This document shows positions 17,254-50,141 of a stretch of DNA of 64,000 nucleotides, piece by piece. Source of the stretch: a virus; IMG/VR virus record IMGVR_UViG_3300045125_000119, positions 1 to 64,000 of that record; one strand, written 5' to 3'. The notes under the pieces were generated by a model. It was not told where the DNA came from. It made no database searches and saw only the letters and a list, made by a program, of their open reading frames with translations. Each line of letters opens with the position of its first letter. Positions within the stretch are counted from its first letter, which is position 1. Made by a program: the position numbers and the translations under genes.

Positions 17254-18324
17254 TTACTGTTGAGGGATATACACCTCGGTCAGTTCCTTCTTGATCTTGT
17301 TGAGTTTAGAGACAATTTGTTCGTACTCGCTGGGGTGCAAACTGCAATTCTTGACGAGTGCCGACGTTTCGCCAACGATCCGGGCCACCGTTTGATGTAT
17401 TTCTCGGCCGATCCCTTTGACCTCATCGAGTGCAGCGGCTATGGCAGGATTTTCTGCGGGTGGTTCCGGCACCGGGTCTTCGGAAGGCTTTACAACAAGT
17501 CTGTTGCCGTCGAATTTCCAGGGTGTGCCGCCATCGGACTTCTCGACTTCATACCTCTGAACTGAGGGTGTTGGTTCTTTGTCGGAAGACTTAAAGAACC
17601 AAACCTCTTCGACCGGAAGCTCGATCAATTTTTGAGTCTGAGAAATGTTTCTGATTCCGCACTCACGCACAGCCAGTTCCCATATCCGTGGTTCGGAAAC
17701 GAAGAAAATCTGACCCAGCAGTTCACGCATATCTACAACCCACAAAGGTCGGAATCGGTTGCGGAACAGCCACAAGAGATTTTGGTTCTGGTATCGTTCC
17801 CCGATGGCGACGGCCATGTGCCCTTCGTTGATGAAGGAGAATATATCTCTGATGCCCGATAGTCGGTTATCGAATTTGTCTTCGTTGACTTCGGTGGGAT
17901 TTTCAAATATCCTGAGAAGTATTTCCGAATCACATTCGGATTGCACCTCGTATTTTTGCTTGAGAGTTTGGTATTCGTAGTCTTCGATGCGGCCGTTGTG
18001 AATGAGGCCGACGGACTTATCGAAACTGACGAACGGATGGTTGTTTTTGTTGCATTCAGGCTCGCCCACGCCTTTGGAGGCGGCTCGTGCGTGAACGAGC
18101 ATGATCGAAGGGTTCAATTTAGCGACTTTGCGCCACACGTCTTTTTTGACGAAATGGCTGCTGCGACAGGGTTCCTTGTGATACACGATTTCGCCGGTCT
18201 GGGTGCCCCAGAATCCGGCGGCATCGGCACCTCTGATTTCACTTTTGTCGAACAGCTTGGTGATTAACTGATACGTCATCACTGGCTTTTTCGACTCGCC
18301 GATAAACCCACTGATACCACACAT
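17254..18324 (-). CDS. Class II glutamine amidotransferase
   Basis: Intact 356-residue frame starting MCGISGFIGESKKP: Cys2 is the catalytic N-terminal nucleophile of class II (Ntn) amidotransferases. EIRGADAAGFWG, VHARAASKGVG and GLIHNGRIEDY follow as in GlmS/PurF-type glutaminase domains. There is no second synthase domain; instead the C-terminal 130 residues are Pro-rich then helical. So ammonia would be passed to another protein, unknown here. The start ATG overlaps the stop of the upstream gene. Similar stand-alone amidotransferases occur in large phages. Confidence 0.85.
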   Translation of the reverse strand: MCGISGFIGESKKPVMTYQLITKLFDKSEIRGADAAGFWGTQTGEIVYHKEPCRSSHFVKKDVWRKVAKLNPSIMLVHARAASKGVGEPECNKNNHPFVSFDKSVGLIHNGRIEDYEYQTLKQKYEVQSECDSEILLRIFENPTEVNEDKFDNRLSGIRDIFSFINEGHMAVAIGERYQNQNLLWLFRNRFRPLWVVDMRELLGQIFFVSEPRIWELAVRECGIRNISQTQKLIELPVEEVWFFKSSDKEPTPSVQRYEVEKSDGGTPWKFDGNRLVVKPSEDPVPEPPAENPAIAAALDEVKGIGREIHQTVARIVGETSALVKNCSLHPSEYEQIVSKLNKIKKELTEVYIPQQ

Positions 18325-19357: not shown

Positions 19358-21001
19358 TTACGCAATATTTTCTTGAATCCGTTGCGATGCTGCGGCAATT
19401 AGTCCTTGAAACAGTGGGGCAGCCGTTGTAAGTCTAGATTTGAACTCTGGGTGCGCCTGCGTCCCGATGAAGTACGGGTGCAAACTCCGGTCCAATTCCA
19501 TAACTTCAACGAGTCCGGTTTCCGGGTTTCGTCCGCTCACCTTGAAACCTTTGGCCTCGTACTGGTTAATGTAGTGTGGGTTGACCTCGTATCGGTGGCG
19601 GTGTCTTTCTTTGATGATTTTGTTTCCGTACAAATCCATCGCCAGTGTATCTTTGACCAATTCGCAGTCGTATGAACCCAATCGCATGGTGCCCGATTTC
19701 ACTTCAAGATTCTCCTGTCCCTCTACGAAGTGAATGACCGGATCGGACGTTTCCTTGTTGAATTCGAGGCTGTTTGCGGCCTCCATACCGCAAACATTAC
19801 GAGCGAATTCAATGACTGCGCACTGAAGACCTAGACAGATGCCAAGGAACGGAATTTTCTTCTCACGGACGTACTGGATCGCTTTGATTTTGCCCTCGAT
19901 GCCACGGGTGTCGAAGCCGCCGGGGACAATGATGCCGTGCAAGCCTTCAAAGTATTTGTGAAGACCACGATTGTCCTTGTATTTTTCCAAATCCTCGGCC
20001 TTGATCCAACGTGGTATAACTTTTACGTTGTTGGCGATACCGGCGTGTACCAGAGCCTCGGTGAGAGACTTGTACGCTTCGTCGCCGTCGTATTTGCCGA
20101 ACACGCCGATTTCAACCGCCGGGAGGTGGTTGTTGACGTATTTCTCCACGACTTCACGATATTTGGCAATGTTGCAACGACTCCGATTCAATCGGAGCAA
20201 GTCAACAAAAGATCGTCAACTTGCCGCTCGTAAAAACCGAGCGGCACTTCGTAGATCGTAGAAACGTCGGGAGCCTCGAAAACGTGTTGACGTGGAACGT
20301 TTGTCAACATCGCAACTTTGTCCAGCAACTTGGCCGGTAGGTCTGGACCGCCGCAGAGAGGGCGACAGAAAATCACGTTGGGTTGAAGGCCGTGCCGTTG
20401 AAGCTCCTTCACCGAATTCTGTAGTGGTTTTGTTTTGAATTCCTTGATGGTAGGAATCCAAAGAATTGGAGCCACCATAACGATCAAAACTTCGTCTTTG
20501 TATTTGCCCTCGTCACGCCACTTGAACTGACGCATCGCTTCAAAGAAAGCGAAACTTTCGCTATCTCCCACGGTGCCGCCAATTTCGGCAATGACAATAT
20601 CGTGTGTTTTGCCCAGATCGAGCAGCCGTTGCTGTATTTTGTCGGTCAGGTGCGGCTGAATTTGCACAGTTTGTCCGAGATACCTTCCTTTTTCTTGTTC
20701 CTCGATTAGTTCTTTGTGCAAAGTCCCGGACGTGGCAATATTGGCCTTGGAAACGGTAATGCCACAAATGCGCTCATAGTGACCCAAATCCAAATCGGTT
20801 TCGGTGCCGTCGTCGCACAGGAAGCACTCGCCGTGTTCACGGGGCGCTTAAAATACCTGCGTTCACGTTCAAATACGGATCGAACTTGATTAAAGTGACG
20901 GTGTGACCCCTGAGTCGCAGCAAAAGTCCCAAACTAGCCGCAGAAACGCCCTTGCCCGTGCCGGAAATCACGCCACCGGCAACAATGATATACTTACTCA
21001 T
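19358..21001 (-). CDS. pyrG: CTP synthase
   Basis: Makes CTP from UTP, ATP and glutamine. The start is [19 protein letters not shown], the synthetase P-loop, with [13 protein letters not shown] next; the middle part has [13 protein letters not shown] and the C-terminal class I amidotransferase domain has [20 protein letters not shown] (catalytic Cys) and the GTQAHPEF His/Glu end. About 547 residues, the normal length. Single-base frameshifts lie near 20845 and 20195. Terminator-like hairpin upstream at 21048 isolates it from the preceding gene. Together with NrdJ and PurN it would raise nucleotide supply for phage DNA synthesis. Confidence 0.93.
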
Positions 21002-29208: not shown

Positions 29209-30061
29209 ATGAACAAAATGATTCAGATGGGCGACACGGTATCTGTTTCTTTTGAAGGAAGAACCGGCACCAAATCGGTTTACAAAGTATCCGGGTACAA
29301 GAAAAACAAGCCCGAAGACTGGCTGGACGAAGATTTTTACGTCGAGGCCGAAGACGGCGAAACGGTGACGGCGGTCTTCGTCGGCTCGGCAGACGAAACC
29401 GATTTCAACGACGAAACCGTTCAAGGAATCCCCAATCGACCGGCCCTCGAAGACGGCGTTAACGAAATTACAATCAAATCCGGCGGGAAAGAATACTACG
29501 CTGCAATTTATCTTGTGCGATGCTCCGAAAGGGTCGGCCACGACAATTCCGGGAGATCGTTTGGGACTCGTACTCGGAAACGTTCGAGTTCGAGGAAATG
29601 GGCTGGGTGTCTGGTCTGTGGGCGTCGGTATTCGGAAGCGAACCTTACGAAGACGATTTTGTGCCCATCAGCATTGAGGCAGATGAAGTGGAAGAAGTCC
29701 ACCACTGCTGCGGTGGACACTGCCACTCTCAAGAAGCCGTAGTCAACATGGACGTTACCCAGCCGGTGGATATGGCTACGCCACCGCCAAGCGAACCCAC
29801 CTACTCGCCGCCGCCAGAGCCGACGTGGACGGCCCCCGAACCCACGCCACCGCCAAGCGAACCCACCTACTCGCCGCCGGAACCGAGTTATTCGCCGCCA
29901 CCGCCCCTCCGAGTTACGACAGCGGTTCGAGCGGTAGCAGTTCTTACGACAGCGGTTCGAGCAGTAGCAGTTCTTACGACAGCGGTTCGAGCAGTAGCAG
30001 TTCTTACGACAGCGGTTCGAGCAGTAGCAGTTCTTACGACAGCGGTTCGAGCAGTTGGTGA
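29209..30061 (+). CDS. Protein with Pro-rich and Ser-rich repeat tail
   Basis: Starts MNKMIQMGDTVSVSFEGRT, with a beta-rich folded N-terminal domain of about 105 residues (FYVEAEDGETVTAVFVGSA, GVNEITIKSGGKEYYAAIY). After a shift near 29515 comes EEMGWVSGLWASVFGSEPY and HHCCGGHCHSQEA, a Cys/His cluster, then Pro-rich PTYSPPPEPTW segments and, after another shift near 29905, five copies of a 30-base unit encoding SYDSGSSSSS, ending W-TGA. A strong terminator follows. The repeats look like a surface or spacer region. No family recognised. Confidence 0.6.
29918..30056 (+). repeat. 30-bp tandem repeat (SYDSGSSSSS)
   Basis: About four and a half copies of a 30-base unit built on TTACGACAGCGGTTCGAGC, almost identical to each other, at the 3' end of the preceding gene. 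Such repeats can change copy number by slippage. Confidence 0.8.
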
Positions 30062-32288: not shown

Positions 32289-32607
32289 ATGGACATAGAA
32301 ACTGAAACATTACAAGGCCAAAATAGGAAGTTAAAAGCCCAATGGACCGTAGAAGCGGCCCAAGACTTGGCCGCTTCTTTCACGGCAACGCCGAGAAAAG
32401 AACTGGCAGAGGTATTGGCACAGGAAATTAACGCCGAGATAGATCGTGAGATATTGGAAGACTCGCGGCGGTCTGCACAGGAAATTAACGCCGAGATAGA
32501 GATCGCGAGATATTGGAAGACTTGCGGCGGTCTGCCCAAGAAAAGGAAGCCGCCGCAAAGAAAAAGAAGAAATATAGGAGCATTGACGACCCGTGGGACG
32601 CCGAATG
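32289..32607 (+). CDS. Stand-alone gp23-like (major capsid) helix protein
   Basis: MDIETETLQGQNRKLKAQW, TVEAAQDLAASF, ELAEVLAQEINAEIDREIL, EDLRRSAQEKEAAAKKKKK, ending YRSIDDPWDAE. The part 'RKLKA.W(T/S)VE.AQDL......EL...LA.EI.AEI.REI' matches a stretch of T4-type major capsid protein gp23, here in a protein of about 90 residues (105 as sequenced because of an internal duplication). It may be a capsid decoy, assembly factor or relic. A frameshift lies within the duplicated part. Confidence 0.6.
32429..32548 (+). repeat. Tandem duplication of about 59 bp
   Basis: CAGGAAATTAACGCCGAGAT begins at about 32429 and again at about 32488; the two copies continue nearly identically through GAGATATTGGAAGACT(C/T)GCGGCGGTCTGC, differing by a two-base insertion (ATAGAGATCGCG against ATAGATCGTG). 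Copy two restores the frame used at the gene end. Confidence 0.75.
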
Positions 32608-33403: not shown

Positions 33404-34330
33404 TAAGTCTCCGGCAATGAAACAAATGATCTATGTCTCTGTTATTTATCGTCCTAAAAACGAATTTCGGCACCGGATTGGGTTTTGGTTTCCGATTTAC
33501 AATGGACTTAAACCTGTTGTTTACGCTCGCTCGTGCAATCGCCGCTGGCGGTGTAAGGAAGCTGGCGAAGGATGAACAACGTAAGTTTTCCAGAAATATC
33601 GAGAGACACCATAAGCATCAGAACTTGCAATAGATTGACCGACTGCCGTTTTAGCAGATGCACCAACAGCCGTCGCTGTGCTGTCCGCTGTGGCTGTACC
33701 TTCACATTGCAAAGCTGTAAACGTAGAAGAAACTGCTGTGCTGTCCGCTACAGCCGTACCGACAAATGTAGCTGTTGCGGCAAGCGATCCCGTTGCCGTA
33801 CTGTCCGCTGTAGCCGTTCCGACCAAATGCAGAAGCACAGAGCTAGTGCCCGTTGCGGTGCTGTCCGCTGTAGCCGTACCGATGACCCCGGCTTGTCCCG
33901 TTGCGGTGCTGTCCGCTGTAGCCGTTCCGACGAACGCAGCTGTTGCGGCAAGCGATCCCGTCGCCGTGCTGTCCGCTGTAGCCGTTCCGACAAATGTAGC
34001 TGTTGCGGCAAGCGATCCCGTTGCGGTGCTGTCCGCGGTAGCCGTTCCGACAAATGTAGCTGTTGCGGCAAGCGATCCCGTTGCGGTGCTGTCCGCTGTA
34101 GCCGTTCCGACAAATGTAGCTGTTGCGGCAAGCGATCCCGTTGCGGTGCTGTCCGCTGTAGCCGTTCCAATGACCCCGGCTTGTCCCGTTGCGGTGCTGT
34201 CCGCTGTAGCCGTTCCAATGACCCCGGCTTGTCCCGTTGCGGTGCTGTCCGCTGTAGCCGTTCCGACAAATGTAGCTGTTGCGATTAAGACACCATCTGC
34301 GGTGCTATCGGCATGGCTAAACCTTCTCCT
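33396..34330 (-). CDS. Virion-type repeat protein (TATADSTATG repeats)
   Basis: About twelve tandem copies of GTATADSTATGSLAATATFV or the variant GTATADSTATGQAGVI, then a unique end ASAKTAVGQSIASSDAYGV, PPAAIARASVNNRFKSIV, HLFHCRRLNG. Such alanine/threonine beta repeats occur in phage tail or spike proteins. The start was probably ATGGCCGATAGC with one base lost near 34316 (MADSTADGVLIATATF). The repeat DNA is also open on the other strand, which I treat as a shadow because neighbouring structural genes and the unique end are on the minus strand. Confidence 0.55.
33700..34290 (-). repeat. 54-60 bp tandem repeats
   Basis: Units of about 60 bases (or 42 for the GQAGVI variant) such as GTTGCGGTGCTGTCCGCTGT plus AGCCGTTCCGACAAATGTAG are almost identical from copy to copy; four adjacent 60-base copies lie at about 33915-34150. 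Confidence 0.8.
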
Positions 34331-37121: not shown

Positions 37122-38137
37122 TACCAACCCCCTCCAATCGCTTCCTGACACAATTGATCGTAGCGAGTAATCATTGTCATCAGGAAAACTGTGACGCCCA
37201 TTCACGGCAAGTTTCAGGTTTCATGCCACCGGTAGCATCTCTTGACATCAAATCTTCCATTTGCTGTTGGCTACTTACAAGAAATCCAGTTTCACCTTCC
37301 TTGATGGTTTCTCGCATTGCCCCGTTGTTCCAAGCTATCACTGGCATTCCGCAAAGTTGAGCCTCGACAGGAGCCAAGCCGAACGGCTCACGGTACGTTT
37401 CGTTGGGATGCAACAATGCTTTGTTTTTACAAAACCAATCGACACATTCGGCACGACTTTGAGGTCCGATGTACTGAATCATCGAAGACGCACTGCATCC
37501 TTCTTTTAATTTGCTTGACCAATTCCGGCTCGCCGGTAAGTCGGTCATCGCCGACCATGTCCAAAAACTTCTAGTATTCTTGGCCGCACTCAGAGCAATG
37601 TGTGGGCCTTTAATTGTACTCATACGGGCCAAAATAAATATCTTTGGTTCCTATTCCATTGACGTGACTCTGTTGTAAGAATTTACGTCAACGCCATTGT
37701 AGCAAACTCTAGATTCTACTTTAAGGTGTTCTTTAACCGCTTCAGATTGATCTTTGCTAATCGCCACCAAACACGGCTTCTCGACGGGCGGGGCCGTACC
37801 AAACATGGTGTGAACCGAGCGTGAAGCACTCGAGAATGGGTGCCTTTAATTGGCCCTCCATTTTCAAAATGTAGCTCCAATTTCTGCCAACTGTGGTCGA
37901 TAATTACGTCGTAACTGGTCAGAGTTTGCCAGTATTTACTGTACTCGTCCTTTTCGTGCCCCCAAGGACAGTTTCGTGAAGCTTGCAATTGACTTTAGAG
38001 CCCGCCGGTGCGATAAGTGTGACATCGTGTCCTCTATCGTGGAGTCCGGTGGCAATTTGCCAAGCCAACATCTCCAGCCCGGAATAACCGGGAGGTGGAC
38101 ACGTCATAATTGTGGTGGAAATTACAGCTATACGCAT
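37120..38137 (-). CDS. GT4-family glycosyltransferase, frameshifted
   Basis: Starts MRIAVISTTIMTCPPPGYS then GLEMLAWQIATGLHDRGHD, the typical GT4 N-terminus. Later segments are YDVIIDHSWQ, VAISKDQSEAVKEHL, ILARMSTIKGPHIALSAAK, GPQSRAECVDWFCKNKALL, REPFGLAPVEAQLCGMPVI (E-x7-E region) and AMRETIKEGETGFLV. The end reads ITRYDQLCQEAIGGGW with TAATG overlap to the next gene. About 340 residues. A GAGG ribosome site stands before the ATG. Breaks near 37990, 37660, 37520 and 37195. Confidence 0.75.
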
Positions 38138-38151
38138 ATGTCCTCAAACAA

Positions 38152-38781
38152 TCAGTTCTGCTGGGGTGAATTCGCCGCCAATTCGACTTCTCCGAGGCCA
38201 ATGTGTCGGCATTGGACGGATGTGTCTACAAGTATTTTATATCCATTCTCACGGGCGTACTGACAGAATCTAAAATCTTCCGACATTCTTTCGTGAGCAG
38301 GCAGGTCGTAACGGTCTACACGCCAGTCGAACCAGGGAGCTTTCAAGGTAGTCAAAACGTCTCTGTGGATCAAAAGACAGCCGGAACCGACGAAATCAAC
38401 TTCCATCAAGTCCGGTGCTTTGAATTGACTAATCCAATTGCGGCCAGAAGGAGATTCCTTGAGCATTACAGGAACAATCGGAGGATTGCGGCGATAATAC
38501 AACCCCGCTGACATAGGCTGTTTGTGGGCCATTAGGCGATAAATGGCATCAGGCGGCGGGACCGTATCATCGTCTAAAAAGACGTACTCCCAGCCCAATT
38601 CAAGAAGTTTTTGACATCCGGTATTACGGGCGTGATCGTAAGGCATTCCAGACAGACCGGTGTAAGTTCCGGGTATCTGTAAATTTTTGAAACCAAAAGC
38701 CCAAGCAACAGAAGTTAATTCTCGTGTCAAAATGACAACAAGCACACGCTGCTGGTTGTATATTTCCCAAGCTCCGGCCAT
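38152..38781 (-). CDS. GT-A (family 2-like) glycosyltransferase
   Basis: Intact frame of 209 residues. Start ATG 38781 has AAGGAG ten bases upstream. MAGAWEIYNQQRVLVVILT, then WEYVFLDDDTVPPPDAIYR carries the DxD metal site, then MSAGLYYRRNPPIVPVMLK, EVDFVGSGCLLIHRDVL and MSEDFRFCQYARENGYK (the catalytic ED region) and VDTSVQCRHIG. These match phage and planctomycete GT2-like enzymes. First gene of the glycan operon 38.8-34.4 kb. Confidence 0.78.
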   Translation of the reverse strand: MAGAWEIYNQQRVLVVILTRELTSVAWAFGFKNLQIPGTYTGLSGMPYDHARNTGCQKLLELGWEYVFLDDDTVPPPDAIYRLMAHKQPMSAGLYYRRNPPIVPVMLKESPSGRNWISQFKAPDLMEVDFVGSGCLLIHRDVLTTLKAPWFDWRVDRYDLPAHERMSEDFRFCQYARENGYKILVDTSVQCRHIGLGEVELAANSPQQN

Positions 38782-40717: not shown

Positions 40718-43700
40718 TCACATGAAAGTACCAGCATTCAACAACGGCAAACCAGAGGTACAAGGATACCCAGGTTCGACATAAAACTGACCGCTGTGAG
40801 TCGCTATCCCTAGACACTGGCATACGGCACCAGATATGTTGGCAACACCACCGAAGCCGCCGGACAAGAATCCGCCAGAAATGTTGCCTACAAATCCAGA
40901 AGCGTTGACCCAAACCGGACGCCCCGGTCGAATAAGGTTCAAACCACTGGCCGGTGTGACTATGCCGTTCACAACAAATTCAACCACTTGTCCCGACAAC
41001 ACACCGGGTCCGTCATAGTAACCCAAAGCGGGCATTAAACCTGACAATGTACTTTGAGCAATTCTGGCATTCCCGGTGTTGTCTACACAAACAGCACGAC
41101 CACCAGAAATTGTTCCAAAAGCAGTAAGCCTTACGACCTGCCTTTGTGACATCGGATAGCCCTGATAGTTCAGGCCGGAAGCAAACATACCAGAAGAAAT
41201 AGACCCGGAGCCAACAACTCCAGACAAGCCGGTCGGGGGAGCGGCCCATGTGAAGTCGTCTCTCAAGAAACTACCGCCCGTAGGAGTTCCTGTAGTTCCG
41301 AGTCGGCCCGAAGTAACGGCCCCCGAACCAATGTGGAACGAACCAACTTGACCGGATGCGATATTGCCCGAAGTAACGGCCCCCGATGAAATGTGGTTGG
41401 TGCCAACTTGACCGGATGCGATATTACCGGACAAGATTTGACCAGAACCAATATCGAGTGAGCCGATTGTACCGGACGCAATATTGTCGAACGTGCCGAT
41501 GCTACCTTGAACAGAACCGGTTGCAATATGAGTAGAACCGATCTGACCGGATGCGATTCTGCCTGAAACAATTGCCCCCGAACCAATGTGGAACGAACCA
41601 ACTTGACCGGATGCGATATTGCCCGAAGTAACGGCCCCCGATGAAATGTGGTTGGTGCCAACTTGACCGGATGCGATATTACCGGACAAGATTTGACCAG
41701 AACCAATGTCAAATGTACCAATGGTCCCAGAAGCAATATTGTCAATAGTGCCGATGCTACCTTGAACAGAACCGGTTGCAATATGAGTAGAACCAATCTG
41801 CCCAGATGCAATGTTGCCAGACAATACCAAAGATGCAACGAACGGCAAGGACGCTGCAATCCCCATCATCCCGCCACCGCTGTTCAAAGCATATCCAATG
41901 GGCTGTATAACGTCGCCCGATAACAACCCGCCGGAGTTAAATGATCCAGAAGTAGTGACTATTTGACCGGACCTACCAACAAACAAAGATTGACCCAAGT
42001 ATCCCGAAAAATCGACCAAACCAGAAGTAAACTGGAATGCTCCGGCCGTATAAACATTAGCTGGAAGACCTGACAGAGTATTCTGGAACACTACGCCAAC
42101 GGCTGGCATACGACCAGAAACAGACGCCATCGCAATTCTGATGTTGCCGGATTGAGACAAACATACAGCCACACTGCCGGAAACAATTTCTTCCGTCAAA
42201 GCCGTCCATTGTGTTCCACTCACAAACGGAGCGGCGAACTGAGCCTGAGACACATGGGCACCGCTGGCGAAGTCAAAATAACCAACAGTCCCCGAACTAA
42301 TGTGTCTAGTAGTTCCGAAATAACCCTGAACCGTACCGGATGCTATTTTCCAGAACCAATACCACCAGAAGTAACACCGCCACCAGCAGCAGCCCATGTA
42401 AAGTCGTCCCGAAGGAACAATGTTCCGTCAGGAGTACCAGCAATGTTTATGTGCCCCGAAGTAATTGCGTTAGGCGCAAAATCGAACGATCCTATTGTTC
42501 CAGAGGCAATATGTCTGGTGGTTCCGTAAAAACCTTGAACCGTACCGGATGCTATTTTTCCAGAACCAATACCACCAGAAGTAACACCGCCACCAGCAGC
42601 AGCCCATGTAAAGTCGTCCCGAAGGAACAATGTTCCGTCAGGAGTACCAGTAACACCCAAACGGCCACTTGTTACAGACCCGCTTGCTATGTGGACATTG
42701 CCAACTTGTCCCGATGCAATCCTACCTGAAACAATTGCCCCCGACCCGATGTCGAGGTGACCCGATTGTACCGGACGCAATGGTAAATGCGCCACCACCG
42801 GCTTGTCCGAGTACAGCACCGGACCCGATATGGCCTGAGTTGACTGCACCGGACGCATGATGGAATTGACTTATAACACCTGACGCAAGTGTGCCTGATT
42901 GTACGGAAGCATTGGCAAGATGTCCGAAGCCAACTTGCCCGGAAGCGATCTTGCCCGAAACTACTGCACCGGAGCCAATTGTAGAAGCTTGAACCGATCC
43001 GTCGGCAAGGTGTCCAAAGCCAACTTGCCCCGATGCAATTCTGCCAGAAACGATGGCACCCGACCCGATGTCGAGTGACCCGGATTGTACCGGACGCAAT
43101 GGTAAATGCACCACCACCGGCTTGTCCGAGGACGGCACCGGACCCGATGTGGCCGGAGTTAACAGCACCGGACGCATGGTGGAATTGGCTTACAACACCT
43201 GATGCGATGGTGCCGGAAGCAACGGAAGCGTTAGCAAGATGGCCGAAGCCAACTTGACCGGAAGCGATCCTACCTGAAACAATTGCCCCCGACCCAATGT
43301 CGAGTGATCCGATTGTACCGGACGCAATGGTGAAAGCGCCACCACCGGCTTGTCCGAGTACAGCACCGGACCCAATGTGGCCTGAGTTAACAGCACCGGA
43401 CGCATGGTGGAACTGGCTTACGACACCTGATGCAAGAGTGCCTGATTGTACAGAAGCATTAGCAAGGTGTCCGAAGCCAACTTGTCCAGACGCAATCCTA
43501 CCTGAAACGATGGCCCCCGACCCAATGTCGAGTGATCCGATTGTACCGGACGCAATGGTGAAACGCTACCACCGGCTTGTCCGAGGACGGCACCGGACCC
43601 CATGTGGCCGGAGTTGACTGCACCGGACGCAAGGTGGAATTGGCTTACAACACCGGATGCGATGGTGCCCGAAGCAACGGAAGCATTAGCAAGGTGTCCG

Positions 43701-46700
43701 AATCCAACTTGTCCCGATGCAATTCTACCTGAAACGATGGCACCCGACCCGATGTCGAGTGACCCGATTGTACCGGACGCAATGGTAAATGCACCACCAC
43801 CGGCTTGGCCGAGTACAGCACCGGACCCGATGTGGCCTGAGTTAACAGCACCAGAAGCGAGGTAAAACTGGCTTACGACACCGGATGACAAACCGCCACC
43901 AGCAGCAGCCCATGTAAAGTCGTCCCGAAGGAACAACGTTCCGTCAGGAGTACCAGTAACACCCAAACGGCCACTTGTTACAGACCCGCTTGCTATGTGG
44001 ACATTACCAACTTGCCCGGAAGCGATCTTACCTGAAACTACTGCACCGGACCCAATTGTAGAAGCTTGAACCGATCCGTCGGCAAGGTGTCCGAATCCAA
44101 CTTGCCCGGAAGCAATTCTACCTGAAACGACCGCACCGGAGCCAATTGTAGAAGCTTGAACCGACCCGTCGGCAAGGTGTCCGAATCCAACTTGTCCCGA
44201 TGCAATTCTGCCTGAAACGACCGCACCGGAGCCAATTGTAGAAGCTTGAACCGACCCGTCGGCAAGGTGTCCGAATCCAACTTGCCCGGACGCAATCCTA
44301 CCTGAAACGACCGCACCGGACCCAATGTCGAGTGATCCAATCGTACCGGACGCAATGGTAAATGCGCCACCACCGGCTTGGCCGAGTACAGCACCCGACC
44401 CAATGTGGCCGGAGTTGACTGCACCGGACGCATGATGGAATTGACTTACAACACCGGACGCAAGTGTGCCTGATTGTACAGAAGCGTTAGCAAGGTGTCC
44501 GAATCCAACTTGACCGGATGCAATCCTACCTGAAACGATGGCACCCGACCCGATGTCGAGTGACCCGATTGTACCGGACGCAATGGTAAATGCACCACCA
44601 CCAGCTTGTCCGAGAACGGCACCGGACCCCATGTGGCCGGGTTAACAGCCCCAGACGCAAGGTGAAACCGACTTACGACGCCGGACGCAATGGTGCCAGA
44701 AGCAACGGAGGCGTTGGCAAGATGTCCGAAGCCAACTTGTCCAGACGCAATACTGCCTGAAATTACATTCCCAGAACCGAGTACAAATCCACTGACATTT
44801 GGATAATTCAGTTGGATAAGGACAGCGCCCACTATTTGCAGCAACTCCCAATGGCTGCAATATATCACCTGACAACAACCCGCCGGAGTTAAATGATCCA
44901 GAAGTAGTGACTATTTGACCGGACCTACCGACATACAAAGAAGTCCCGATATAGCCTGAGTAATCAGCCAATCCAGAAGACAACTGAGAGAATCCAGCCG
45001 TATAAACATCAGCCGGAATACCGCTTGCAACAGAATCAAACACAACACCAATGGCTGGCATCCGAGAAGGAACCGAAGCCATAGCAACAAGCAAATTGCC
45101 GCTTAAAGACAATGCAACGGCACGACCACCAGAAACTATTTCTTCAGTAAGAACGGACCAGTTGGTTCCACTAACAAATGGTGTTAAAAATTGGGCACGA
45201 GGGGCAGTTGCTCCTGATGCGAATTTATAGGTACTTACAACACCTGATGCGATGGTGCCTGACTGTACAGAAGCATTGGCAAGGTGTCCGAATCCAACTT
45301 GCCCGGAAGCAATTCTACCCGAAACGACCGCACCGGACCCAATGTCTAGTGATCCGATTGTACCGGACGCAATGGTGAAAGCTCCACCACCGGCTTGGCC
45401 GAGTACAGCACCCGACCCGATGTGGCCGGAGTTAACAGCACCGGACGCATGATGGAATTGGCTTACAACACCTGATGCAAGAGTGCCAGAAGCAACGGAA
45501 GCATTAGCAAGGTGTCCGAATCCAACTTGCCCGGAAGCGATTCTACCCGAAACGACCGCACCGGACCCAATGTCGAGTGATCCGATTGTACCGGACGCAA
45601 TGGTGAAAGCACCACCACCGGCTTGTCCGAGTACAGCACCCGACCCGATGTGGCCTGAGTTGACTGCACCAGACGCATGATGGAATTGGCTTACAACACC
45701 TGATGCAAGAGTGCCAGAAGCAACGGAAGCATTAGCAAGGTGTCCGAATCCAACTTGCCCGGAAGCAATTCTACCCGAAACGACCGCACCGGACCCAATG
45801 TCTAGTGATCCGATTGTACCGGACGCAATGGTGAAAGCACCACCACCGGCTTGTCCGAGGACGGCACCGGACCCGATGTGGCCTGAGTTGACTGCACCGG
45901 ACGCATGATGGAATTGGCTTACAACACCTGACGCAAGTGTGCCTGATTGTACAGAAGCATTAGCAAGGTGTCCGAATCCAACTTGACCGGAAGCGATCTT
46001 ACCTGAAACTACTGCACCGGAGCCAATTGTAGAAGCTTGAACCGATCCGTCGGCAAGATGACCGAATCCAACTTGACCGGAAGCGATCTTGCCCGAAACT
46101 ACTGCACCGGACCCAATTGTAGAAGCTTGAACCGATCCGTCGGCAAGATGACCGAATCCAACTTGCCCGGAAGCGATCCTACCCGAAACGACCGCACCGG
46201 ACCCAATGTCGAGTGATCCAATCGTGCCAGACGCAATGGTAAATGCACCACCACCGGCTTGTCCGAGGACGGCACCGGACCCGATGTGGCCTGAGTTAAC
46301 AGCACCAGAAGCGAGGTAAAACTGGCTTACGACACCGGATGACAAACCGCCACCCGCAGCAGCCCATGTAAAGTCGTCCCGAAGGAACAACGTTCCGTCA
46401 GGAGTGCCGGTAACACCCAAACGGCCACTTGTTACAGACCCGCTTGCTATGTGGACATTACCAACTTGTCCAGACGCAATCTTACCAGAAACTACTGCAC
46501 CGGACCCAATTGTAGAAGCTTGAACCGACCCGTCGGCGAGATGGCCGAAGCCAACTTGCCCGGAAGCGATCCTACCCGAAACGACCGCACCGGACCCAAT
46601 GTCTAGCGATCCGATTGTACCGGACGCAATGGTGAAAGCTCCACCACCGGCTTGACCGAGGACGGCACCGGACCCGATGTGGCCGGAGTTAACAGCACCG

Positions 46701-49700
46701 GACGCATGATGGAATTGGCTTACAACACCTGATGCAATGGTGCCAGAAGCAACGGAGGCATTGGCAAGATGTCCGAATCCAACTTGCCCGGAAGCGATCT
46801 TGCCCGAAACTACTGCACCGGAGCCAATTGTAGAAGCTTGAACCGATCCGTCGGCAAGGTGTCCGAATCCAACTTGTCCAGACGCAATCTTACCTGAAAC
46901 TACTGCACCGGAGCCAATTGTAGAAGCTTGAACCGACCCGTCGGCAAGATGTCCGAATCCAACTTGTCCAGACGCAATTCTGCCCGAAACAATTGCCCCC
47001 GACCCGATGTCGAGTGATCCGATTGTACCGGACGCAATGGTAAATGCACCACCACCGGCTTGGCCGAGGACGGCACCGGACCCGATGTGGCCGGAGTTAA
47101 CAGCACCGGACGCATGATGGAACTGGCTTACAACACCTGATGCAATGGTGCCAGAAGCAACAGAGGCGTTGGCAAGGTGTCCGAATCCAACTTGCCCGGA
47201 TGCAATCCTACCCGAAACGATGGCACCGGAAGAAATATGGAAAGAACCAATTTGCCCAGAAGCAATATTGCCTGAAAGGACAACACCGGAACCAAGAGTC
47301 AGACCCCCGCTAATATATTGATTTCCCTAGTCCAATTAGAGCGCCGCCGCTGTTGTTCGGCACGCCTAATGGCTGCAATATATCTCCCGATAGGAAACCG
47401 CCTGAGTTAAACGATCCAGAAGCGGTAACTATTTGACCAGACCTACCGACATACAATGAATTCCCAACATAGCCTGAGTAATCAGCCAATCCAGAAGTAA
47501 ATTGCACCACTCCTGCTGTATAAACATCGGCGGCAATGCCACTGGCTACGTTATCAAACACAACTCCGATAGCTGGCATCCTGCTTGGAACTGAAGCCAT
47601 AGCAACGAGCAAATTGCCGCTTGGGGACATTGCGACGGCACGACCACCAGAAATATTTTCTTCGGCCAATACCGTCCAAGCCGATCCACTTACAAAAGGT
47701 GCAGCAAACTGCGATCTTGTAGTTGCTGTGCCACTTGCTATTTTGTATGTTGAAATTTGACCAGATGCAAGGTGTCCAGCACCAACTTGTCCCGATGCGA
47801 TCCTACCTGAAACGATTGCTCCCGACCCGATGTCGAGTGATCCAATCGTACCGGACGCAATGGTGAAAGCTCCACCACCGGCTTGGCCGAGTACAGCACC
47901 GGACCCGATGTGGCCTGAGTTAACAGCACCGGACGCATGGTGGAACTGACTTACGACGCCTGATGCAAGAGTGCCGGAAGCAACAGAGGCGTTGGCAAGA
48001 TGTCCGAAGCCAACTTGTCCCGATGCAATGGTGCCTGATTGTACGGAAGCATTGGCGAGATGGCCGAAGCCAACTTGCCCGGAAGCGATCCTACCTGAAA
48101 CGATGGCACCCGACCCGATGTCGAGTGATCCAATCGTACCCGGACGCAATGGTGAAAGCTCCACCACCAGCTTGTCCGAGGACGGCACCGGACCCGATGT
48201 GGCCGGAGTTGACGGCACCGGACGCATGGTGGAATTGACTTACGACGCCTGACGCAATGGTGCCTGATTGTACGGAAGCATTAGCAAGGTGTCCGAAGCC
48301 AACTTGACCGGAAGCAATGGTGCCTGATTGTACGGAAGCATTAGCAAGATGACCGAAGCCAACTTGCCCGGAAGCAATTCTACCCGAAACGACCGCACCG
48401 GACCCGATGTCGAGTGATCCAATCGTACCGGACGCAATGGTGAAAGCACCACCACCGGCTTGACCGAGGACGGCACCGGACCCGATGGTGGCCTGAGTTA
48501 ACAGCACCGGACGCATGATGGAACTGGCTTACAACACCTGATGCAAGAGTACCTGACTGTACGGAAGCATTGGCAGGGTGGCTGACCAACTTGCCCGGAA
48601 GCAATTCTACCCGAAACGACCGCACCGGAGCCAATTGTAGAAGCTTGAACCGACCCGTCGGCAAGGTGTCCGAATCCAACTTGTCCCGATGCAATTCTAC
48701 CCGAAACTACTGCACCGGACCCAATTGTAGAAGCTTGAACCGACCCGTCGGCAAGGTGTCCAGAGCCAACTTGCCCGGAAGCAATTCTACCCGAAACGAC
48801 CGCACCGGACCCGATGTCGAGTGATCCAATCGTACCGGACGCAATGGTGAAAGCTCCACCACCGGCTTGGCCGAGGACGGCACCGGACCCGATGTGGCCG
48901 GAGTTAACAGCACCGGACGCATGATGGAATTGGCTTACAACACCTGATGCAAGAGTGCCAGAAGCAACGGAAGCATTAGCAAGATGTCCGAATCCAACTT
49001 GCCCGGAAGCAATGGTGCCTGATTGTACGGAAGCATTAGCAAGATGGCCGAAGCCAACTTGCCCGGAAGCAATGGTGCCTGATTGTACGGAAGCATTAGC
49101 GAGATGGCCGGAGCCAACTTGACCGGATGCAATCCTACCTGAAACGATGGCACCCGACCCGATGTCTAGTGACCCGATTGTACCGGACGCAATGGTAAAT
49201 GCGCCACCACCAGCTTGTCCGAGGACGGCACCGGACCCGATGTGGCCGGAGTTGACTGCACCGGACGCATGATGGAATTGACTTACAACACCGGACGCAA
49301 GAGTACCTGACTGTACGGAAGCATTGGCAAGGTGGCTGAAGCCAACTTGTCCCGATGCAATCCTACCCGAAACGATGGCACCGGAAGAAATATGGAAAGA
49401 ACCAATTTGCCCAGAAGCAATGTCGCCACTGAAATACTTACCTGGGACAATTCCTTGAACGCCAAAAATGGCACCGCCGCTATTTTTTACAGTGCCAATA
49501 GGTTGTACTATTCCACCCAACTGCCCAGATGCAGTAGAAATATCACCAGAAGCACCAACATAAAGTTGTTGTCCAGTATAACCGGAGAAATCTACTTGTC
49601 CACTTCCGAACTGAACGGGACCAGTAGTGTATACATTGACATTTTGTCCGCTGGCAACATTATCGAAAGCGACGCCAATGGCTGGCATACGTCCCGAAAC

Positions 49701-50141
49701 AGCGGCCATAGCAATACGAACATTGCCAGAAACCGGAGAAATGTGAACGGCTTTCAGTCCAGAAATCGGTTCTTCTGCAATGGCAGTGAACTGAGTTCCG
49801 CTAAAATACGGTCCTGAGAACTGTGAACGGTTAATTTGGTTCTGATATCGTGCAGGACTGACCTGCATGACATCTTTCGATCCGGCCGAGAAGTTAACCG
49901 CATTGCCGCCATTGCTGCTGGCATAAATGGTAGTGCGAGTAAGTGTTAGGGCACCAGAATCGTAGGTGCCTCGTCCGACTTCCCAATCGGTGCCGTCGGT
50001 AATACAGTAAGGGGTTTCGTTGCCATTGCCAACAACAGCAAACGACTGATAACCAATCCTGCACCGGCCAAAGTTACGGTGCCAGTACCGGTTGTTGTAG
50101 TCGTTTCCCAAATCTCTGTCGAATAGTGGTAGTTCAGCCAT
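40718..50141 (-). CDS. Giant repetitive tail fibre, multiply frameshifted
   Basis: About 3,140 residues if read as one gene. The N-terminus is a classical phage tail-fibre start: VWETTTTTGTGTVTLAGA, GYQSFAVVGNGN, YCITDGTDWEVGRGTYDSG, TIYASSNGGNAVNFSAGS. The body has about 40 copies of an (I/V)SGxIASGQVGFGHLA motif, in 30- and 76-residue units, with five copies of a longer module (FVSGTxW...AVxxSxSGN...MASVSxRMPAIGVVFDNVASG...VYTAG...DYSGYxGxSLYVGRSGQIVT) and five of GTPDGTLFLRDDFTWAAxGG. It ends LLNAGTFM. A TCTAAATA box and GGGAGAG precede the ATG. More than eight indels interrupt it; assembly of repeats may be imperfect. Role: host attachment, by family. Confidence 0.78.
41330..49480 (-). 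repeat. Tail-fibre repeat array: 90-bp, 228-bp and longer units
   Basis: At DNA level a 90-base unit (GSGAVVSGRIASGQVGFGHLADGSVQAST) and a 228-base unit recur with few changes; three 228-base copies lie in register at about 45480, 45710 and 45940. A longer segment around 42343-42440 recurs at about 42555-42650. Units are shuffled rather than simply tandem, suggesting repeated recombination. Confidence 0.85.

Follow-up and report, generated by a model that had tools for sequence, protein, structure and literature searches.

A giant tail fibre gene rich in the dipeptide Ser-Gly (SG) and a cassette of glycosyltransferase (GT) and methyltransferase genes are genetically linked, in a conserved order, in the virus analysed here and about a dozen further uncultivated ones. 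The window covers the first 64 kb of a linear virus contig of 146,164 bp. An SG-rich fibre with an adjoining sugar-and-methyl cassette suggests that the virus's own enzymes sugar-coat the fibre, and we consider it likely, judging from the sequences, that the virus encodes an O-glycosylation system of its own, dedicated to attaching methylated oligosaccharides to the fibre at Ser-Gly. On the most economical reading, Ser-Gly would be the acceptor signal or contain it. We lean more cautiously towards the broader claim that the conserved four-gene cassette, with Ser-Gly as a dedicated O-glycosylation signal on giant fibres, constitutes a widespread and previously undescribed phage system.

The fibre gene and its parts are as follows.

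40718..50141, minus strand: giant Ser-Gly-rich tail fibre gene, about 3.1 kaa (PHROG tail-fibre matches, SG count)
49842..50141, minus strand: fibre N-terminal domain, about 100 residues, SG-poor
49431..49841, minus strand: beta-barrel module 1
47319..47729, minus strand: beta-barrel module 2 (modelled, pLDDT 76, pTM 0.71)
46358..46408, minus strand: linker GTPDGTLFLRDDFTWAA
44801..45211, minus strand: beta-barrel module 3 (frame break close to module end)
43904..43954, minus strand: linker GTPDGTLFLRDDFTWAA
42598..42648, minus strand: linker GTPDGTLFLRDDFTWAA
42388..42438, minus strand: linker GTPDGTLFLRDDFTWAA
41849..42259, minus strand: beta-barrel module 4
41240..41290, minus strand: linker variant GTPTGGSFLRDDFTWAA
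40775..41185, minus strand: C-terminal variant beta-barrel module (37% identity with module 2)

Positions 40718-50141 lack a continuous open frame; the coding pieces are spread over all three frames with about ten breaks, which are single-base indels like those found across the whole contig. Because stop-free stretches elsewhere in the contig reach at most 447 aa (20-24-kb slices scanned outside the fibre gene), and because fibre relatives in other contigs have unbroken frames of 976-2502 aa, we take the breaks to be indel errors, probably of assembly; genuine stops or frameshifts were rejected on the same grounds. The coordinates given in an earlier, sequence-only reading of this DNA were confirmed, as was the coding sequence on the minus strand. 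Two tail-fibre families, phrog_892 and phrog_28766, matched the fibre with best E values of 1e-18 and 1e-14, and phrog_13518, of unknown function, matched with an E value of 5e-24. A Pfam profile search of the fibre gave no match, nor did a comparison of its DNA with 50,697 phage records, and a scan of viral contigs with the fibre C-terminal domain returned no relatives. The first relatives came from searches with degenerate repeat patterns, one further pattern giving none. The PHROG tail-fibre matches, the decoration/fibre fold of the barrels and the unbroken relatives of ~1-2.5 kaa support the view, already put forward in the sequence-only reading, that the predicted product is a giant modular tail fibre.

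The motif ASGQ[VI]G was counted 44 times in the gene as assembled, and a search of the 146-kb contig located the motif 40 times, in every case inside this gene; the exact repeat number is uncertain. The repeat arrays have periods of 90 and 228 bp and also 60/255/289/348/408-bp combinations. The base period of the stalk is five residues, with Ser-Gly spacings peaking at multiples of five, and in each pentad, SGx(I/V/L)x, the second residue is glycine and the fourth aliphatic; a 15-residue period was dropped in view of these spacings. The modular inventory proposed earlier was recovered in full and lies wholly within this gene, namely some 40 motif copies in 90-bp and 228-bp units (44 ASGQ[VI]G counted, both periods present), five long modules (four with RMPA[IV]G, one with LMPALG) and five short linkers of the GTPxG...FLRDDFTWAA type (four GTPDGTLFLRDDFTWAA and one GTPTGGSFLRDDFTWAA). 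Outside the fibre, the window also holds short tandem arrays at 29914-30055, 32418-32543 and 33734-34283, with units of 30 bp, ~59 bp and 60/48 bp, respectively.

A structural model of the barrel module, built from 19 sequences (pLDDT 76), matched the mycobacteriophage Adjutor protein 8saj in Foldseek (E 3.3e-4, probability 1.00, TM 0.59) and, more weakly, HFTV1 (8qsy) and phi29 gp8.5. Against BFVD it gave 45 matches with E ≤ 0.001, to DUF2190 and tail-fibre-like proteins. The modelled fold is that of a phage decoration / DUF2190-type beta-barrel. At the sequence level the modules gave no consistent match to PHROG, no match among the 50,697 phage records and one weak match (E 0.04) in the PDB profile search.

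The dipeptide SG occurs 315 times in the 3089 aa obtained by joining the frame pieces, 3.3 times the expected number; the first 100-aa bin holds three copies and most later bins 9-13. Nearly all related fibres show the same bias (2.0-4.1x expected), and in the first twelve of them serine precedes 38-61% of glycines. The contigs of these relatives range in GC content from 35 to 67% and mostly use all six serine codons; since both serine codon families are used over this range, selection acts on the protein. The bias also extends beyond the repeats, because the non-repeat barrel modules share it: 19 of them contain 210 SG against 25 GS (expected 47.5), together with only 6 TG, 3 DG and 1 NG. In the barrel alignment the SG pairs rank with the best-conserved columns, and several show no or almost no variation between the window and distant viruses. 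The homologous stalk repeats of P-GSP1, DSS3_VP1, LP65, S-TIP37 and Pkon1 have SG at 0.8-1.5x expectation, their glycines mostly following D, A, N or T. There are counter-cases: the fibre repeats of Terrisporobacter phage TVCOM_ph1 reach 3.3x with no annotated glycosyltransferase, and some fibre-like ORFs near the cassette are weakly biased (SG:GS of 1.0 in L043b). SG-rich ORFs at the start of locus L021 were discarded because they are a collagen-like gene read out of frame; this gene (L021 290-11530) encodes a collagen-like fibre of 3.7 kaa with many GxQG repeats and SG modules at its end. Several SG-rich fibres also lie on L022/L023 (QZIP01000049.1), labelled as a Parcubacteria MAG and probably a phage contig, and a GT-A relative (L025) lies on another contig of the same bin.

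Directly downstream of the fibre, on the same strand, the cassette consists of a GT-A-like gene, two GT4 genes and a methyltransferase gene.

38155..38781, minus strand: GT-A type glycosyltransferase (phrog_1574; Anp1 / family-2 like; conserved DxD)
37183..38137, minus strand: GT4 glycosyltransferase a (frame broken; 50-54% identity to the 390-kb contig copy)
36289..37133, minus strand: GT4 glycosyltransferase b (frame broken; 37% identity to the 390-kb contig copy)
35258..36082, minus strand: SAM-dependent methyltransferase, matched part

A PHROG glycosyltransferase profile matched all four aligned GT-A members, in which the DxD is invariant. Matches to Pfam were weak (best Anp1, E 4e-5), and a fold model with pLDDT 41 was left unused. 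Of the 50,697 phage records, 58 hold a homologue of the GT-A; none of these homologues reaches 60% identity, and just two span 80% or more of the query. A scan of viral contigs with the single GT-A sequence gave no matches. GT4 proteins of G000, G001, G002, G003, G008 and L037 exceeded the curated cut-off of PF00534; in the window GT4a alone passes it, and GT4b was recognised by tblastn. GT4b has sub-threshold similarity to the O-glycosyltransferases SdgA/SdgB and to GtfA, and this likeness to adhesin O-glycosyltransferases is at most a hint of O-glycosylation. An unbroken relative of the methyltransferase has 541 aa with three methyltransferase stretches. In the 235-kb contig (L050 10670-13063; L021 14751-17156) an intein that contains a LAGLIDADG-like domain interrupts the GT4a gene. 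Elsewhere in the window (17254-18324 and 19358-20200, minus strand) lie two glutamine amidotransferase-type genes, with GATase_6/7 (PHROG GlmS-like match) and GATase class I domains, which might supply amino sugars for a glycan.

In G000, G001, G002, G003 and G008 the fibre is followed by the GT-A and GT4 genes, always in one order. The linkage was also tested in reverse, with the GT-A alignment as the only query against viral contigs. This search returned 15 loci, one of which was left out because its contig begins 548 bp before the GT-A. An ORF was classed as SG-rich if it had 20 or more SG and these amounted to no less than twice the expected number; such an ORF lies upstream on the same strand in 14 of the 14 loci with enough upstream sequence. 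When the near-identical contigs L044-L046 are counted as one virus, and likewise L048/L049, eleven distinct viruses remain testable, and seven of these had no part in defining the fibre family. The complete order of GT-A, GT4a, GT4b and methyltransferase is present in 12 of the 15 loci (counting L050 with its intein-split GT4a); contig ends truncate L044 and L046, and L051 has no methyltransferase match in the flank. By the same definition, none of 469 ORFs in ten control phage records (four of them with distant GT-A relatives) and none of 303 ORFs in the remainder of the contig was SG-rich. No GT gene was seen on the short SG-fibre contigs G005-G007, which end 4-7 kb past the fibre, and no SG-rich fibre was found near the distant GT-A relatives of a cyanophage and an archaeal virus. 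Small proteins with SG at 2.5-2.8x lie near the distant GT-A of two Manatee Spring phages; these phages were rejected as independent support, since the proteins are generally rich in Ser, Thr, Ala and Gly and none is SG-rich as defined above. Other genes were noticed beside the fibres. On the 83-kb contig, proteins with CxxCH-like motifs adjoin the fibres (L007 957-3866, L016 13885-17169) and one neighbouring protein has an HZS_alpha domain, perhaps as cargo acquired from a host resembling planctomycetes; on the 390-kb contig the interval between fibre and cassette (L037 3522-9227) holds a run of paralogues that are beta-propeller-like (WD40-like).

The fibre and the cassette might instead merely share a host-interaction region, the enzymes acting on a host surface polysaccharide or on phage DNA and the SG bias being a separate matter. 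Phage glycosyltransferases do modify DNA and host serotype, according to PMC12619734, and among the models similar to the GT4s many belong to polysaccharide synthesis. We nevertheless regard this as unlikely, as an SG-rich fibre accompanies the cassette at all 14 testable loci and appears in none of the ten control records, and the loss of NG, DG and TG from the barrel loops would be left unexplained. Still less probable is a purely structural role, in which Ser-Gly, left unmodified, is favoured as a corner both in the pentads of the stalk and in the turns of the barrels. The period of exactly five residues speaks for it, as do the SG-rich repeats of TVCOM_ph1 with no annotated glycosyltransferase; yet Asn-Gly and Asp-Gly, the best beta-turn formers, are nearly gone from barrels that are unrelated to the stalk, homologous stalks elsewhere carry D/A/N-Gly, and the linkage to the cassette would have no explanation.

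The sequence-only reading had also described many of the repeat copies as almost identical at the nucleotide level and the array as free to change in length and order by recombination; it mentioned neither the SG bias nor the cassette next to the fibre. The 66 pairs among 12 copies of the 48-codon unit do not bear out the former: their mean identity is 98.9% for amino acids and 89.6% for nucleotides (minimum 85%), no pair is identical in DNA, and the longest exact direct repeat is 134 bp. Codon differences per pair average 14.2 synonymous and 0.53 nonsynonymous (20.5 and 0.95 in the 390-kb relative); being mostly synonymous, these differences suggest that the copies are old and under strong purifying selection. 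In a related phage, three sister contigs that are 99.7-99.9% identical share 2.3-2.7 kb of the fibre without gaps and with the repeat order kept; no change in repeat number was seen over this part. Module number and order do vary among distant fibre relatives, and to that extent the proposal of changing length and order holds; rapid recombination is not supported, nor is frequent change in repeat number, given the synonymous-dominated differences and the gap-free sister contigs. A hypervariable fibre, whose frequent recombinational changes in repeat number or order alter host range, would draw on that distant variation, on a nearly exact 228-bp duplication inside L001 and on four-gamete failures that climb with distance (18 of 33 site pairs less than 15 bp apart, 96 of 110 at 45 bp or more). 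Set against the ratio of 14 synonymous to 0.5 nonsynonymous differences per pair, the lack of identical copies and the constant order in the three sister contigs, it seems to us quite improbable; the four-gamete failures fit a degree of gene conversion among the copies on an evolutionary time scale. We give almost no weight to the array being a pseudogene or an assembly artefact: its roughly ten frame breaks lie in a contig rich in indels, but conserved, unbroken relatives exist in independent contigs and nonsynonymous differences between copies are almost absent.

Returning to fibre O-glycosylation, we infer from the genes a scheme in which the fibre is the substrate, and its serine linkage, order of sugars and glycan role are part of that inference. 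The fibre would consist of an N-terminal attachment domain, a long pentad stalk and decoration-fold barrels strung as beads. In the infected cell one transferase would add the first sugar to the serine of Ser-Gly turns, the others would lengthen the glycan and the methyltransferase would cap it by O-methylation, all ahead of the incorporation of the fibre into the virion. The fibre may thereby become extended and resistant to proteases, bearing short glycans, up to hundreds of them, which would govern adhesion and shielding.

Virion glycosylation in phages is already known; XacN1 and mycobacteriophage virions are the closest cases that literature searches on glycosylated phage tails brought up. 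In the Xanthomonas jumbo phage XacN1, virion glycoproteins were detected and two phage glycosyltransferases are present (PMC5852040), with no link to a fibre or a motif. Mycobacteriophage virion proteins bear glycans described as a shield (Freeman et al. 2023, as cited in PMC12619734); there the C-termini of capsid and tail-tube proteins are reported to be glycosylated, whereas the substrate predicted in the present case is a giant fibre that repeats one dipeptide and has a conserved cassette to itself. The stalk repeat resembles that of tail fibres with IADGAVTTAKIADG-type repeats (25-46% identity; PHROGs 892, 13518 and 28766), found for example in the Prochlorococcus phage P-GSP1, the Paracoccus phage Pkon1 and the Lactobacillus phage LP65, but in the present fibres SG is dominant and barrels interrupt the stalk, with a GT cassette next in line. 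The barrels share their fold with the decoration / DUF2190-type barrels of mycobacteriophage Adjutor (8saj), HFTV1 (8qsy) and the phi29 head fibre base gp8.5, and differ in forming several beads within one fibre with conserved Ser-Gly turns. Serine-rich repeat adhesins (GtfA/B, SdgA/B) are likewise long, repetitive, Ser-rich surface proteins adjoining their own GTs; those are cellular, whereas the viral system has a Ser-Gly dipeptide and, in addition, a GT-A and a methyltransferase, and the neighbouring genes listed include no accessory Sec genes.

Were Ser-Gly to prove structural, the conserved linkage between fibre and glycosyltransferases would still want an explanation. If the glycosylation reading is true, phage protein glycosylation would be readable from sequence through a two-residue signal and a four-gene cassette, offering a compact O-glycosylation system for laboratory testing. 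Sugar-coated tail fibres would then be predictable across uncultivated viruses, and sugar chemistry would enter the workings of receptor-binding fibres.
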